A stretch of 64,000 bases of DNA from Planctomycetaceae bacterium. Lineage in GTDB: Bacteria > Planctomycetota > Planctomycetia > Pirellulales > Pirellulaceae. Below the pieces are notes generated by a model. It did no database searches, had not been told where the DNA came from, and worked only from the letters and a program-made list of their open reading frames with translations. The stretch is from positions 1 to 64,000 of the forward strand of contig SXOA01000062.1 of assembly GCA_005778405.1 (NCBI GenBank), given 5' to 3'. Position numbers and translations under genes: made by a program. Each line of letters opens with the position of its first letter. Positions within the stretch are counted from its first letter, which is position 1. This document shows, in pieces, positions 1 to 7,496 of the stretch.

Positions 1-1725
1 GATTTCGCCGCCGGGCACGCGCGGGACCACCGAGTATGAGCCGTCCCGTTGGATGTTGGCCAGGAAGCGGTCGTTGGTGTCCTGCAATGTTGCGTGATTG
101 AGGATGCTGTCATTCCAGAGGCTGGCGAGGATCGACGCGACCGCCGGCTTGCAAATTTCGCAGCCCAGCCCGTGCCCCTCGCCGGCGATGAGGTCGTCGA
201 AGGTCTTGATCTGCTTGATTTTGACGATGTGGAAGAGTTCCTGGCGAGTGAAGGGGAAGTGCTCACACAGGTTCCTGTTCACCGTCTTGCCGGCCGCTTC
301 AAGCTGGCGGTTCAGAATCGACGTCACCAGCGGCACGCACCCTCCGCAGCCGGTGCCGGCCTTCGTGCAGGATTTGACTTCTCCCAACGTCAGCAGGTTT
401 CTTTCCTGAATGGCCGTGCAAAGCTCTCCCTTGGAGACGTTGTTGCACGAGCAGATCTGACAATCGTCGTCCATTGCATCCGCGCCGCCAGCACCATCCT
501 TCTTGCCGACGATCAGCTCGCCGGGAGGCACTGTCAGGAGTTTGCCGCTTTTGGCGAGCGAGGCCAGCATAGTGTAATCGTCGGCGTCGCCGACGAGCAC
601 TCCGCCGACCAGCTTTTTGCCGTCAGGGCTAAAGAGGAGCTTTTTGTAGACGCCGCCGAAGGGATCGTCGTAAACCAGCGGGCGAGCCCGTTCCGCTGGC
701 GCTTCGTAGTCCCCAAAGCTGGCCACGTCCACTCCCATCAGCTTGAGTTTCGTGGAAAGGTCGGCTCCGGTGAATTGCTTCTGGCCGCCACAGAGATTGG
801 CGGCGGCGACGTCGGCCATTTCGTAACCGGGGGCGACCAGGCCATAGACCATGGCGCGATGCAGGGCGACTTCGCCAATCGCGTAAATCCTCGCATCGCT
901 CGTTTGCAGATGGTCATTGATGGCCACGCCTCCCCGCTCGCCAACTTTGATGCCGCACTTGCGGGCCAATTCATCGCGGGGGCGGATGCCGGCGGAAACA
1001 ACGATCATGCCGACATCGAGTTCGGAGCCGTCGGTAAAGACCATCTTTTCCACCTTCTTCTCCCCCAGAACCTCCTTGGTCGCCTTCTGCAAATGCACCT
1101 TCACGCCCAGTGACTGGATTTTCTGCACCAGCAGCCGCGAGCCGGGGTCGTCCACCTGCCGGGGCATGAGCCGCGGGGCGAACTCGATGACGTGCGTTTC
1201 CAGCCCCAAATCGAAAGTTGCTTTCGCCGCTTCCAGGCCGAGCAAACCGCCCCCAATGACCGCAGCGGTCTTTACCTCCTTGGCGTGAGCGATGATCCGC
1301 TCCAGATCGTCTATCGTGCGGTAAAGGAAGACCCCCGGTTTATCAATGCCAGGGACCGGCGGCACAAACGGAAACGAGCCAGTGGCCAGGACGACATAAT
1401 CGTACTTGATGACCAAGCCCTGGTCTGAAGTCACAATCCGGCGCTCCCGGTCAATTTCGCTGGCTCGGTCGCCGACATGCAGCTCGATTCCCTGGTCGCG
1501 ATACCAATCGAGATTGGCGAGCATCAGCTTCTGGGCGCTGCGGCTGGCGAAGAAGGACGTGAGGCCGACGCGGTCGTAGGCGGCTCGCGGTTCTTCGCAG
1601 AAGGTGACGATACGGAAGCGGCGGCCGGTGTCGTACTCGATCAGTTTCTCGCAGAAACGGTGCCCGACCATGCCGTGGCCGATGACGACGATGGTTTGTT
1701 TGTCGAATCCAGATTGGGCGATCAT
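1..1725 (-). CDS. nirB: NirB-type assimilatory nitrite reductase large subunit (3' end beyond window)
   Basis: Reduces nitrite to ammonium in the cytoplasm using NAD(P)H, FAD, a 4Fe-4S centre and siroheme. The track lacks this ORF because it runs off the left edge; I read it from the minus strand as MIAQSGFDKQTIVVIGHGMVG and onward, 575 residues in frame to base 1. Residues 10-30 form the first FAD dinucleotide-binding motif (VVIGHGMVG), a second Rossmann motif (AAVIGGGLLGLEAA) lies near 150, and the Cys-rich BFD-like 2Fe-2S module (CQICSCNN, then CTKAGTGCGGC) lies near 415-455. NirB is usually about 800 residues, so the sulfite/nitrite reductase domain is missing only because of the window edge. 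The ATG has a GGAG ribosome site about 10 bases upstream. It lies 34 bases after nasA and is the last gene of the operon visible here. Confidence 0.93.
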   Translation of the reverse strand, partial: MIAQSGFDKQTIVVIGHGMVGHRFCEKLIEYDTGRRFRIVTFCEEPRAAYDRVGLTSFFASRSAQKLMLANLDWYRDQGIELHVGDRASEIDRERRIVTSDQGLVIKYDYVVLATGSFPFVPPVPGIDKPGVFLYRTIDDLERIIAHAKEVKTAAVIGGGLLGLEAAKATFDLGLETHVIEFAPRLMPRQVDDPGSRLLVQKIQSLGVKVHLQKATKEVLGEKKVEKMVFTDGSELDVGMIVVSAGIRPRDELARKCGIKVGERGGVAINDHLQTSDARIYAIGEVALHRAMVYGLVAPGYEMADVAAANLCGGQKQFTGADLSTKLKLMGVDVASFGDYEAPAERARPLVYDDPFGGVYKKLLFSPDGKKLVGGVLVGDADDYTMLASLAKSGKLLTVPPGELIVGKKDGAGGADAMDDDCQICSCNNVSKGELCTAIQERNLLTLGEVKSCTKAGTGCGGCVPLVTSILNRQLEAAGKTVNRNLCEHFPFTRQELFHIVKIKQIKTFDDLIAGEGHGLGCEICKPAVASILASLWNDSILNHATLQDTNDRFLANIQRDGSYSVVPRVPGGEI

Positions 1726-1757
1726 GTGGTATTTCTCCGTCAGTCAAGTCTCAAAAC

Positions 1758-1791
1758 CCTCACCCCGGCCCTCTCCCAAAGGGAGAGGGGG
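1758..1791. repeat. Palindromic repeat supplying the nasA 3' end
   Basis: A perfect 9-bp stem (ccctctccc / gggagaggg) with loop aaa at 1769-1789, preceded by ctcaccccgg. The sequence type (CTCACCCC-GGCCCTCTCCC-AAA-GGGAGAGGG) is a widespread dispersed palindrome in bacterial genomes. Here it is inside the reading frame of nasA and contains its stop codon. It could also act as a processing or attenuation hairpin between nasA and nirB. Confidence 0.8.
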
Positions 1792-4021
1792 ATAAGTCGG
1801 CAACTTCGGCTCGCCGCACATTCACCGCGCAATTCTTATAGGAAGGCTGGCGGGAGTAAGGATCAAAATGAGCCAGTGTGAGCTGGTTGGTAGTTTCGTA
1901 ATGCATGGGAAGGAAGCACAGTCCGCGTTGCACGGTCGGCGTGACAAACGCCTTGGCGACAAGGCCCCCCCGTTGCGATTCGACGACGACCCGCTGGTTG
2001 GAGGTGATTCGCAGCTTGCGGGCGTCTTCGGGATTCAGCTCGACGTAAATTTCCGCCGGATAAAGCTGGCGGAGGACGGCTGATTTCTTGGTTCGCGTTT
2101 GCGTATGCCACTGCGAAGCGGTGCCGCGGCCCGTGAGCAGCAGGAAGGGATACTTTTCGCTAGGAGGCTCGGGCATCTCCGCCGGCATCTCGAACAGGAA
2201 TTTGGCTTTGCCGTCGTCGTGATAAAAACGCCCTTCGGCAAAGAGCCGCCGCTGCGTGCCTTCATCGCGCTCGCCCGACGAAGGATAAGGCCACTGCACT
2301 CCGCCGCGCTGGTCGATCATGCGGTAATCTTCGATGCCAGTGATGTCGCAGGGCTGGCCGCGCGAGAGCTCCTTGAGAATCTGGAACACCTGCTCGGGGC
2401 TGGTCCAGCGCGAGAACATTTCACCGCAGCCCCAAGCGTCGGCAATCAGGCGAAAGATGTGAAAATCGGCGAGCGCCTGACCAGGAGCAGGGACCACCTT
2501 CTTAATAACCCCAAACCGCCGCTCCGAGTTGATGAACGTTCCTTCCTTTTCCCCCCAAGACGCGGCAGGCAACACCAAGTGCGCGAGCTCGGCGGTTTCC
2601 GTGGAGTGGTACATGTCCTGGACCACCAAAAAGTCGAGCCGGCTGAGGATATCGCGGACAGCGTGCTGGTTGATCCAAGAATGGGCCGTGTTGGTGGCGA
2701 CGATCCAGAGCCCCTTGATCTGGTCTCTCAGAATCCCTTCGATGATCCGGTCGTAGCTCCAACTGGGCTGCGTGGGAATGCGTTCCTTGTCGACCCCCAG
2801 AATGCCAGCCACCTTCTCGCGATGCTGGGGATTCTCAAAGGCTCGCCCACCGAGCAAGTTGGTGGTGTTGCTGAACAGCCGCGAGCCCATCGCGTTGCAT
2901 TGTCCCGTGATGGAATTGGCCCCCGTTCCCGGCCGGCCGATGTTGCCCGTCATCAGTGCCAGGTTAATGATGGCCTGGGCAGTGCGGACCCCTTCGTAGC
3001 TCTGGTTGACTCCCATCGTCCACCAGAACGAGACCCGCTTCCCTTCATGGATCAGTCGGGCTGATTTTTCCAGGACGGCAGTTTCGAGTCCACTCACTTT
3101 GGAAACATACTCGGGCGTAAACTGCCTGACGTGCTCGGCGAAAGCTTCGAATCCCGTCGTGTGCGCGGCGAGAAACTCCCGATCGATCCATTCTTCGCGA
3201 ATGAGAATGTGAGCCAGGCCGTAGAGCAGCGCCAGGTCCGATTTCGGCTGGAGCGGCAGGTGGAGCGTGGCCGCCATCGCCGTTTCCGTCGTCCGCGGAT
3301 CGACCACGATGATCTGCGGCTCGTGGGGGTTGCGGCAGATTCTCTGCCACATGATCGGGTGCGCGATGCAAAGATTCGAGCCGACCAGAACGATCACGTC
3401 GGATTCTTCAAAGTCCTGATAGGTGTAAGGGGGAGCGTCGAAGCCAAAGGACTGCTTGTAGGCGACGACCGAGGTGGCCATGCATTGCCGCGTGTTGCCA
3501 TCGCCATGCAGCATCCCCATGCCGAACTTGGCGAGGCTGCCGAGGAAGGCCATTTCCTCGGTCGGAATCTGGCCCGTGCCGAGGAAGGCGATGGAATGGG
3601 GGCCGTGCTTGGCTTGAATCCCTTTCATCCGCTGGCAAAACGTCTGGAGCGCGGCGGCCCAGGGGACCGGACGCAGCGTTCCACCGGCATCGCGCAAAAG
3701 CGGGGTCGTTGCCCGATCGGGAGAATTCAATACGGTCAGCGCTTCCCAGCCCTTCGGGCAGGCCATGCCAAGGTTCACCGGATAATTCGTCGTCGGTGTC
3801 AAGTTGACCGCCTGCCCCTCTTTCAAATGGATGTTGAGTCCACAGCCGGTGGAACAAAAGCCGCAGACCATCGTAGTGGTGGCATCGGGCTGCTTGCCGG
3901 CGGGAACTTTCCCTAGTCCAAAACGGCCGGGAGTGAGCAAAAGGTCGCGAGTCAGCGGACCGGTCGGCTGCCAGAGCAGATCCGCGAGGACCGAGCGTAT
4001 TGTTTCGGCGGCAGCGGTCAT
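1760..4021 (-). CDS. nasA: NasA-type assimilatory nitrate reductase, molybdopterin catalytic subunit
   Basis: 753 residues. Reduces nitrate to nitrite at a Mo-bis-MGD centre. The N-terminal 4Fe-4S motif (CGFCSTGCG, closing Cys in MACPKGW) is at about residues 52-93. The Mo-ligand region [13 protein letters not shown] resembles NapA/NasA, in which this Cys binds molybdenum. The C-terminal molybdopterin dinucleotide-binding domain covers roughly 620-740. No Tat signal is visible, which fits a cytoplasmic assimilatory enzyme. Its ATG overlaps the stop of the upstream ferredoxin/anchor gene by 4 bases (ATGA), so the two are probably translationally coupled. The last residues ([10 protein letters not shown]) and the TGA are encoded by a palindromic repeat, so the natural C terminus has been replaced or extended. 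Periplasmic NapA is less likely without a signal peptide and next to nirB. Confidence 0.93.
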
Positions 4022-5736
4022 GCGGCGGGAGTTCCTGGCATCTTGGGGGCGATGACGGCGCTAAAGAACAAGTAGCGTTCCAGCACTTCGCCGAGAAAGC
4101 AAATCCCTAGGGCCAAGACCATCGCGACCGCGATGAACTGGGTTGAAAGAGTCTGCTGTGGATCGAGGAGTGGGGCGAGGAACAGGAAGCCGGGCAGGGC
4201 GATTCCACCAGCGACTCCACAGAGAAATCGCTGGCTCGTCCGGCGGGCAAGTTCACCCGTGGTTAGCATGGCCGTCCGTTTAAGCGGAGTCAGCCGGCGG
4301 CTGAGCAGGTGTGAGAATAGGGAGGCTTCAAACAGGAGTTTGACGACGGCCACCAGCGCCAAAATACCACAGAGGTTGCGGCCATAATCCGTCATGATTT
4401 GTGGCACACTCAACGACTCCGTGAAGGCCGCAGCCACAAACGCGATAAGGAGCGAGGTGGGAATTCCGAGCAGCGCGCCGGTCAGCAGAAAACGCAGCCC
4501 CGTTCGCGACCAGTGCCAGAGCGGCCGGCGGGTGCTGTCGTAGACCATCACGGAGCAAAAGACTCCCGTTAAGCCGGTCGCGACCACGCTCCAGCCCAGC
4601 AGGTCATTCGCTCCCCGGGAAATGTTGATGTTCCAAACCGAGAGCCACGGCAGCGCGGCATACAGCGAGGCCAGTGCCGCAAAGGCCCCGAAGCAGACAA
4701 TCTCGCGGCTGAGCCAGGAGGTCAGAAGGCCGATGACGGCTCGGAAGGCGAACAATGGCCGCCCCAGGTGGAACAGCGAAGCACCCATGCCGAGCATTCC
4801 GAGTGCGAAAGCGGCAATCAGATGCACGGCGCGAGTTTGCTCGATAGTTTCCTGTCCGTTGACCGCCAGAACGCGGCCCAACAATTGTTCCACGACGAAT
4901 GTACCGACGGACATCTGGGTGAGCACCAGCATCAGCACCAGCGGCCAGTGGGCATGTTGCGGCGAGGCCGCGTAGTAATCCGCCGGCAGCAAGTTTCGCG
5001 GGAGCGGGCGGCGGGTCTTGAACGTGGTCGTCGGCAGCGTGTAGCTCGGAGCGGCAGCGCCGGGTAGAAACTGATTGGCCTCGCTCTCTTCGATGATGGC
5101 CTGCTTGTTCACCAGCGTGATCCGAATCGCCCCATTCGGGCAAGACTGCACGCAAGCCGGAGCTTCGCCAACTGCTAGGCGATTCTGGCACATGTCGCAC
5201 TTGCGGACGATTCCTTTGGAGTGGCTGTATTTGGGAACGTCGTAGGGGCATTTCAAGATGCAATACTGGCAGCCGATGCATTGGTCATCGAGATGTTTGA
5301 CAATGCCGGTGGCCGGATCCTTGACATAGGCATTCACGGGGCAGCCATGCAAGCAGGCAGGTTCCAGGCAATGATGGCAGGCGCTCGTGACATGCTGAAT
5401 CACCGGCAATTCGGCCGAACCGCCGCTCAGCAGGCCGACGGAACGCCAAGTTTCGTCCTCTTCCAAGCCGTTAAGATTGTGGCAGGCAACCACGCAGGCT
5501 TTGCAGCCGGAGCAGGAATCGAGATCGACCTCGAAAGCGTACTGCTCCCCGTCCCGAGGAGCCGTGAGCGGAATGAGATTGCGATAATACTTTTCCTGGT
5601 CAGGGAGTGAGTCACATTCATGGTGCCGAGCGAACTGCTCTACCGCCGTCAGCTGCTGCTGATCGCGCAGGAGCTCATCGAGCAACTTCAGACCGGTGCG
5701 AGCAGGCGCACTTGGCTCCAAGAGTAAAGCGGACAT
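4018..5736 (-). CDS. Fused DmsB-like four-cluster ferredoxin and DmsC-like membrane anchor
   Basis: 572 residues from ATG 5736 (MSALLLEPS); the track start at 5799 adds 21 poorly characteristic residues. Residues about 75-225 carry four 4Fe-4S motifs: [35 protein letters not shown] and CDMCQN with CVQSC, 16 cysteines in all. From about residue 255 there are about eight hydrophobic segments resembling the DmsC quinol-oxidising anchor. In DmsABC-type enzymes these are separate subunits that pass electrons from menaquinol to the molybdenum subunit. It is first in the operon and overlaps nasA by 4 bases, so I infer that it delivers quinol or ferredoxin electrons to NasA. The four clusters and anchor look intact. 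Confidence 0.9.
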
Positions 5737-5833
5737 TAACGAAAAGCACTTCCTGCTCGGGGAAAGGTCCAAACAGCCGCATGGCCTATGCGGCGCCAAT
5801 CATCCGCCTGGAAGAAGCGCCGGGAATTGATTC

Positions 5834-5848
5834 GCAAGTCCTATGCCA
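5834..5848 (-). promoter_or_regulatory. Sigma-54 (-24/-12) promoter for the nitrate reductase operon
   Basis: Read on the minus strand: TGGCATAGGACTTGC, with GG and GC separated by exactly 10 bases, matching TGGCAC-N5-TTGC except for one base. Predicted transcription start is near 5822, 86 bases before the ATG at 5736. It is one of a divergent pair. Confidence 0.7.
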
Positions 5849-5891
5849 CCAGGGCACAAGTAACGAAGGGGAGGAATCGGCCCGCAAAGCT

Positions 5892-5904
5892 AGCCATGAT
5901 GGCT
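5892..5904. promoter_or_regulatory. Perfect short palindrome in the nitrate intergenic region
   Basis: AGCCAT-G-ATGGCT, a perfect 6-bp dyad with a one-base centre, between the minus-strand -24/-12 element and the NtrC-like site. It could be an accessory regulator site or chance; no family consensus is recognised. Confidence 0.3.
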
Positions 5905-5920
5905 GCGACCTTCTGGGGCC

Positions 5921-5937
5921 TGCACCATAATTGGGCA
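5921..5937. promoter_or_regulatory. NtrC-like enhancer shared by two divergent sigma-54 promoters
   Basis: TGCACC-ATAAT-TGGGCA matches the NtrC dyad TGCACC-N5-GGTGCA at 10 of 12 specified bases. Its centre (5929) is about 107 bases from each predicted transcription start (about 5822 and about 6036), the usual distance for an NtrC upstream activating site. Binding by NtrC or another enhancer-binding protein is inferred; no such regulator gene is in the window. Confidence 0.6.
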
Positions 5938-6008
5938 GTCATCGCCAACTCCGCAGGCATTGCGCTCTGCTTCCACTTACGACTATGGCCAGATTCTCGA
6001 AATCCTTG

Positions 6009-6025
6009 CCGGCACTTGATTTGCA
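6009..6025 (+). promoter_or_regulatory. Sigma-54 (-24/-12) promoter for the nitrate transporter
   Basis: ccGGCACTTGATTTGCA: GG (6011-6012) and GC (6023-6024) are separated by exactly 10 bases and the -12 box is TTGCA. Predicted start near 6036 gives a leader of about 66 bases before the GTG at 6102. Confidence 0.7.
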
Positions 6026-6101
6026 AACAAGTGCGCCACGAAGAATCCTCATGGCACCATCACAGGGCTCTTGTCACGCAAGCAGTTTCTGAGGCGGGAT
6101 T

Positions 6102-7496
6102 GTGCCGCACGTCGGACTCTTCACGCATCGTTTCGTGCATCCCGCCTCCCATCAGAAAGCTTCTGTGCTGTCGATCTCTCCCGCGCCTTCCCTCGCCAGC
6201 CCGCGCTGGCGCGTGCTCATTCTCTCGACCGTCGCTTTCACTTTGATGTTCAACGTCTGGCTGATGTTGGGCGTTCTCGGAATACCTATCCGAAAGGGAC
6301 TCGAACTCAGCGATTCGCAATTGGAGTGGCTGATTGCCGTTGCGATCCTTTCGGGCGCACTGTTGCGGCTGAACTTCGGCATTTGGACGGATCGGTTTGG
6401 CGGCCGAAACATGATGGTCTTCCTGTTGCTGTCCTCCGCGATACCGACCTATCTGTTCAGTCTGTCCGATTCGTACATGGAACTTTTCATGTGCGCGGCG
6501 CTCTTTGGCATGTCGGGCAACTCGTTTTCCGTCGGCATCGCCTGGAATTCAGCCTGGTTTCCGCCACAGACCAAAGGGACAGCTCTGGGGGTGTTCGGGG
6601 CCGGTAATGTCGGTGCCGCGGGGACCAAGCTGCTGGTGCTGTTCGTGCCCGCGATCCTGACTCTGGTTCCGGCCGCGGGCTTTCTGTGGGGCTGGATACC
6701 CGGCGGCTGGCGGTTCATTCCGTCGCTCTATGCGGTGCTGCTCGTGATGATGGCCGGAGTCATTCTGCTGGTCGCTCCCAAAAATGATCCTCGTCCGGCG
6801 CAAGGCCGTTCGATGCTCTCCTTGATGTCGCCGCTGCGGTACTTGAGAGTCTGGCGTTTCAGCCTGTACTATGTCGTCGTGTTCGGTGCCTATGTCGCCC
6901 TCTCGAGCTGGCTCCCGAAGTTCTACATTGATACCTACAAACTCTCACTGCACACCGCCGCGCTCTACACCGCATCGTTCATTTTCCCCGCGAGTCTTTT
7001 GCGGCCACTGGGAGGTTACCTGTCGGACAAATTCGGCCCGCGCGTCGTGACTTACTGGGTCTTTGCTGTCATGACCGTGGCGCTCGCCATCCTGGCGATT
7101 CCCAGCGGCGAATATCTGGGCGTCGCCTATTATCCCTCAGCCGGAGTGTTTGCCATGCTGATGTTTGTCGTCGGCTGCGGAATGGGGATTGGCAAGGCCT
7201 CGGTTTACAAGTACATCCCCAATTATTTTCCGCAGGATGTTGGCGCCGTGGGCGGCCTTGTGGGATTGCTTGGTGCCCTGGGGGGATTCTTTCTGCCACC
7301 ACTGTTCGGCGCTCTGGGCCGCTGGTCCGGCGTGCCCCAAATGGCTTTCGTCGCACTGCTGGCGCTCACTGCCGGTAGCCTGGCGTGGTTGCACGTGGCA
7401 GTTGTCCAGATGCGCGGCGCATCCCTCTCATCGGCAGCGAATCTCTTGCCACCTCCGGCTCTCTCTGGATCCCTGGAGGCGGAAAGTTCAACCTGA
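6102..7496 (+). CDS. narK: NarK-type nitrate/nitrite transporter (MFS)
   Basis: 464 residues, about 12 membrane segments. Imports nitrate and/or exchanges nitrite across the inner membrane. The nitrate signature is clear: GMSGNSFSVGIAWNSAWFPP followed by KGTALGVFGAGNVGAAGTK at about 130-170, with a second Gly-rich signature near 375-400 (GAVGGLVGLLGALGG). The arginines of GIWTDRFGGR and RPLGGYLSDKFGPR are typical of the family. Start GTG 6102 has GAGG seven bases upstream; an alternative GTG at 6165 has no ribosome site but would remove an unusual N-terminal extension. It is divergent from the nitrate reductase operon and shares its control region, which supports an assimilatory role. Confidence 0.92.
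   Translation: MPHVGLFTHRFVHPASHQKASVLSISPAPSLASPRWRVLILSTVAFTLMFNVWLMLGVLGIPIRKGLELSDSQLEWLIAVAILSGALLRLNFGIWTDRFGGRNMMVFLLLSSAIPTYLFSLSDSYMELFMCAALFGMSGNSFSVGIAWNSAWFPPQTKGTALGVFGAGNVGAAGTKLLVLFVPAILTLVPAAGFLWGWIPGGWRFIPSLYAVLLVMMAGVILLVAPKNDPRPAQGRSMLSLMSPLRYLRVWRFSLYYVVVFGAYVALSSWLPKFYIDTYKLSLHTAALYTASFIFPASLLRPLGGYLSDKFGPRVVTYWVFAVMTVALAILAIPSGEYLGVAYYPSAGVFAMLMFVVGCGMGIGKASVYKYIPNYFPQDVGAVGGLVGLLGALGGFFLPPLFGALGRWSGVPQMAFVALLALTAGSLAWLHVAVVQMRGASLSSAANLLPPPALSGSLEAESST

Follow-up and report, generated by a model that had tools for sequence, protein, structure and literature searches.

A candidate shared two-site enhancer between divergent sigma-54 promoters of nitrate assimilation genes in planctomycetes

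Introduction

The closest described arrangements of activator sites and sigma-54 promoters come from three systems. The NtrC sites of glnA are about 32 bp apart, and the paired NtrC sites of Klebsiella nifLA, which precede a sigma-54 promoter, are separated by about 21 bp. The nifJ-nifH pair has divergent sigma-54 promoters, and the sites between them may serve both. The planctomycete locus analyzed here has two outward-facing sigma-54 promoter elements with a pair of NtrC-like dyads, 22 bp apart, between them. Throughout the text, "the window" refers to the whole stretch of 64,000 nucleotides that was analyzed.

According to the part of a 2025 sigma-54 survey that was consulted, planctomycetes are known to have sigma-54 itself, sigma-54 promoters and a large number of enhancer-binding proteins, and nitrogen-uptake genes are enriched as sigma-54 targets in Pseudomonadota (PMC12316311). 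The same part of the survey calls the conservation of NtrBC in Planctomycetota limited and describes no planctomycete nitrogen regulon with an enhancer motif (PMC12316311).

Results

Gene Setting

A gap of roughly 430 bp separates a minus-strand operon from a NarK-family gene (Table 1). The DmsBC-NasA-NirB set of the operon reads as assimilatory. Its NasA-like enzyme is encoded together with a fused 4Fe-4S/DmsC-like anchor and a NirB-like protein (window positions 1-5736, minus strand), and the fused anchor beside a NasA-like enzyme suggests a quinol-linked assimilatory nitrate reductase. The same set was found again in dozens of genomes of the order. A search for rpoN, which had been proposed in the initial annotation, found the gene in the genome (PF04552, E = 3.3e-62). 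An Rfam search of positions 5000-7000 returned no known leader RNA.

Table 1. Genes and predicted regulatory elements around the divergent intergenic region (window coordinates).
Feature	Position	Strand	Sequence or motif	Remarks
NirB-like nitrite reductase	1..1725	-		Cut off by contig end; putative name, from domain make-up
NasA-like molybdopterin nitrate reductase catalytic subunit	1760..4021	-		
Fused 4Fe-4S (DmsB-like) and DmsC-like membrane anchor protein	4018..5736	-		First gene of operon; probable start ATG at 5736
Sigma-54 promoter element toward DmsBC-NasA-NirB operon	5834..5848	-	TGGCATAGGACTTGC, TGGCAT-N5-TTGC	13.9 bits
Enhancer dyad 1, NtrC-like, predicted	5921..5937	.	TGCACCATAATTGGGCA	2 mismatches to E. 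coli box
Enhancer dyad 2, predicted	5943..5959	.	CGCCAACTCCGCAGGCA	1 mismatch to TGC-N11-GCA
Sigma-54 promoter element toward NarK-family gene	6010..6024	+	CGGCACTTGATTTGC, CGGCAC-N5-TTGC	15.7 bits
NarK-family nitrate/nitrite transporter	6165..7496	+		Probable start GTG at 6165 (alignment with L123); ORF opens at 6102

Promoter Elements and Dyads in the Window

The initial annotation had described one sigma-54 promoter element on either side of the gap, facing outward to the nitrate reductase operon and to the NarK gene. Both elements are present at these positions and in this orientation, with exact GG-N10-GC spacing in each, and both fit the flanking YTGGCAY/TTGC consensus around this core. 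Scores were calculated with a matrix that was written from the known consensus and not trained. With +1 set 12 nt from the -12 C, the minus-strand start is predicted near 5822, about 86 nt ahead of the ATG, and the plus-strand start near 6036. The string YGGCAYN5TTGC occurs three times in the 64 kb versus 0.86 expected, and three occurrences were reached in 8 out of 100 shuffles. A perfect 7-bp inverted repeat (GCACTTG-N9-CAAGTGC, window positions 6012-6034) overlaps the NarK-side promoter; it was not found at this place in the closest relative, L123, and is perhaps due to chance.

A single dyad, TGCACC-N5-TGGGCA, had initially been taken as the enhancer. This dyad (dyad 1) is indeed present, but a second one, located exactly 22 bp from it, had been overlooked, and the predicted enhancer is rather a tandem pair spanning 39 bp. 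When compared to the E. coli NtrC box, TGCACCAnnnTGGTGCA (PMC8743547), dyad 1 has mismatches at two of 14 positions and is the top match of the window. Its half-sites, TGCACC and TGCCCA, match at four or five of six positions, according to the pairing chosen for the ends. With these two mismatches, and with about 2.7 matches of up to three mismatches expected per window, dyad 1 is weak evidence in the window alone. The single-window evidence for the promoters and the dyad is thus modest, and whether they exceed chance is settled only by comparative data.

Conservation of the Promoters in Relatives

Homologues of the DmsBC-like protein were sought first in 196 and later in 396 genomes of the order, as well as in a named genome collection. 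Set A comprises the DmsBC orthologues of about 52% identity and more, while set B comprises more diverged homologues. All null expectations are based on first-order Markov shuffles.

The closest relative, L123, is a Planctomycetaceae MAG with a 71% identical DmsBC-like (reductase) protein. Its NarK gene is orthologous and likewise divergent, and both sigma-54-like elements are present, with lower scores (about 11 bits) and a promoter-to-promoter distance of 362 bp versus 177 bp in the window. Conservation in close relatives had been suggested as a test of the two promoters; they are kept in L123 and, in addition, at about a dozen remoter loci. A sigma-54 site of at least 12 bits toward dmsBC was found in 18 out of 41 upstream regions of set A (0.66 in shuffles) and in two out of 32 of set B (A versus B, Fisher p = 0.0004). 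About half or more of the set A orthologues have no strong sigma-54 site toward dmsBC (e.g., L013, L017, L018, L020, L022, and L023), and these lineages probably control the operon in another way.

Divergent NarK-family genes, belonging to two different subfamilies, were found at 13 loci, which were picked by gene content and not by motif. Eleven of these have a site of at least 12 bits toward dmsBC, 11 have one toward NarK and 10 have both, while shuffling gave zero two-sided loci in 194 out of 200 rounds and never more than one; the loci are akin to one another, so these counts are not fully independent and the effective number is lower.

A Conserved Tandem of Dyads

Dyads of the form TGC-N11-GCA show an enrichment in set A that is almost lacking in set B, and the pattern TGCNC-N7-GNGCA occurs eight times in set A versus 0.72 expected. 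A stricter count of the NtrC box (TGCACCN5GGTGCA, up to three mismatches) gave a mild excess in set A (21 against 14), and the looser dyad was adopted instead. Between the two promoters, where an NtrC-like element had been proposed, 11 out of 13 divergent loci have paired 17-bp TGC-N11-GCA dyads that are 21-22 bp apart, as counted with a pattern that was refined on these same loci. In the null for this spacing the mean was 0.14 and the maximum two in 500 rounds, and none of the other spacings from 17 to 44 bp was found in more than two of the 13 loci. At a distance of 21-22 bp, or two helical turns, both dyads face the same side of the DNA.

Strong conservation across the loci is limited to TGC-N11-GCA, with the dyads being poorly conserved inside. 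The intergenic regions otherwise cannot be aligned, except that L006, L008, and L015 share some short or weak matches. Because the tandem and the promoters are kept while the remaining intergenic sequence drifts, the pattern is, judged from sequence comparison, that of functional sites. The alternative that the promoter-like and dyad strings are chance matches, with the operons driven by other sigma factors, would agree with strings that are only mildly unusual within a single window, but it hardly accounts for promoters and a tandem spacing that are conserved across intergenic regions of this kind, and we consider it very improbable.

The dyad had also been noted to lie at an equal distance of 107 nt from both predicted starts. 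This symmetry is correct for the window (dyad 1 centre at 5929) but is not conserved among the loci, where the distances from dyad centre to start lie between 85 and 280 bp except on one side of L021, where they are 433-455 bp. Given this range of 85 to 455 bp, a 107/107 spacing is ruled out as a rule. The varying distances to both starts, more than 430 bp in case of the NarK side of L021, could also mean that the tandem serves one side only, with the other promoter having its own unrecognised enhancer or regulator, and some loci without a divergent NarK gene do have a dmsBC-side promoter with a tandem. However, the tandem is found between the promoters at nearly all divergent loci, and there is no second tandem beyond either promoter within the region examined, which makes separate control of the two sides improbable, though less so than chance matches. 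One tandem acting on both promoters is the reading that we prefer.

The Same Element at amtB and P-II Genes

Upstream regions of P-II genes from 12 genomes contain the tandem in seven out of 30 cases (0.58 expected), mostly about 125-150 bp upstream of the sigma-54 site. The P-II gene of the window's own genome (G000) has one dyad only and a weaker promoter. A tandem scan of this genome, in which one mismatch was allowed and the backward pattern served as control, found 27 tandems with a spacing of 21 bp (control: 25) and 41 with a spacing of 22 bp (control: five). A sigma-54-like site at 40-300 bp from the tandem was found for three out of 47 sites examined: the window itself, amtB, with the sigma-54 site 138 bp on, and one site of unclear target. 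This number is near chance (2.2 expected), so that the weight of the scan rests on amtB being among the matches. The recurrence of the same layout at amtB and P-II genes suggests that the tandem is part of a nitrogen-status regulon.

The tandem at C10:19365 (L258/L287) of the scanned genome has a sigma-54 site of 17.3 bits, 103 bp away, toward a gene for a TPR-repeat protein; a ferredoxin-like gene is located on the other side and no nitrogen gene was recognised there. A triple dyad at surE (C106) was dropped as a regulon member, as it has neither a sigma-54 site nor a nitrogen gene. The palindrome TGCACACGGAGTGTGCA recurs widely in the genome (C12:44139, C15:60854, C25:21513, and C92:17794, with variants such as C46:121397) and may represent a repeat or terminator family.

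Candidate Activators

Nine sigma-54 activators are encoded at full length in the genome, along with several partial ones. In ten genomes, the 16-18 kb surrounding the nitrate genes were searched for a sigma-54 activator gene, and none was found. The best NtrC match is the C45 protein, which fits the ntrC family better than any other, and no kinase was recognised beside its gene. Several candidates are left after comparison of family scores, distribution of DNA-binding domains, reciprocal best hits and solved NtrC/Fis domains, and it would be premature to describe the activator as an NtrC orthologue.

Two other activator types should be mentioned. The first lacks a receiver and is encoded between argH-like and hemA-like genes. 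The second is encoded in three relatives (L242, L243, and L244) as a kinase and sigma-54 activator pair between pnp-like and mutL-like genes, with GAFTDA or GAYTDA replacing the usual GAFTGA loop; in the window's own genome, no kinase was recognised alongside this type. The names of these flanking genes were given by eye from sequence. Neither type was found linked to nitrogen genes.

A serious contender, with a somewhat less than even chance in our estimate, accepts the promoters and the shared enhancer as real but replaces an NtrC orthologue by another sigma-54 activator of the phylum that has taken over the role with a similar box. Such an activator could be of the receiver-less type or the pnp-kinase-regulator-mutL type, or it could respond to nitrate. 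The C45 protein scores below the family cut-off (430 versus 558.6 bits). A search for its DNA-binding domain gave no match in G331, G343, G029, and G010; at least two of these, G331 and G343, do carry the tandem and the promoters. Other activator types are also common to the genomes with this architecture. On the other hand, the box resembles the NtrC consensus, nitrate assimilation, amtB and P-II genes are NtrC targets, and a diverged NtrC orthologue could escape a 72-residue query.

Discussion

We consider it likely that both operons depend on a single two-site enhancer, to which an NtrC-like activator binds, and that they form part of a nitrogen regulon. The genome encodes rpoN, the promoters and the tandem with its spacing are conserved among the loci, and the same layout is found at amtB and P-II genes. 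We take DNA looping, activator binding and the response to nitrogen from established NtrC/sigma-54 biology; what the activator is, and that a single enhancer acts on both sides, is likewise inferred. When nitrogen runs short, an NtrC-like enhancer-binding protein would occupy both dyads cooperatively. The bound activator would then oligomerise, loop the DNA to either side and spend ATP to open both sigma-54 polymerase complexes, by which nitrate uptake (NarK) and nitrate/nitrite reduction (DmsBC-NasA-NirB) would be switched on together. Planctomycetes thus probably regulate their nitrogen genes as proteobacteria have long been known to do.

A more far-reaching reading, which we put forward tentatively and hold to be rather less probable than its opposite, is that part of the order has a nitrogen regulon of the NtrC type whose sigma-54 activator is not orthologous to NtrC and recognises a fixed two-dyad enhancer (TGC-N11-GCA twice, 21-22 bp apart), and that on more than one occasion this shared enhancer came to lie between genes for nitrate reductase and for NarK proteins of different subfamilies.

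Studholme and Dixon reportedly surveyed the sigma-54 regulon of Pirellula in 2004 and may have priority for parts of this finding. For planctomycetes, the proposed nitrogen regulon is a concrete one that can be tested: its promoters and enhancer have a defined signature, which can be scanned for across genomes, and the 39-bp tandem provides a handle on the activator. The phylum matters for nitrogen cycling, and NtrBC control in it is reported as limited, at least in the part of the survey cited above.

The architecture resembles the enterobacterial NtrC/sigma-54 system (glnA, glnK-amtB) in its sigma-54 promoters, in the paired 17-bp NtrC-like dyads about 100-200 bp upstream and in its nitrogen-assimilation targets, including amtB and P-II genes. 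It differs in its planctomycete host, in dyads that vary inside TGC-N11-GCA and in an activator that stands at the level of candidates. The pairs are also spaced differently from those of glnA, at 21-22 bp. In this respect they are similar to Klebsiella nifLA with its two sites at about 21 bp, although nifLA has one promoter and other target genes. The position of the sites between divergent promoters is shared with nifJ-nifH, where the sites are of the NifA type and the genes are those of nitrogen fixation.
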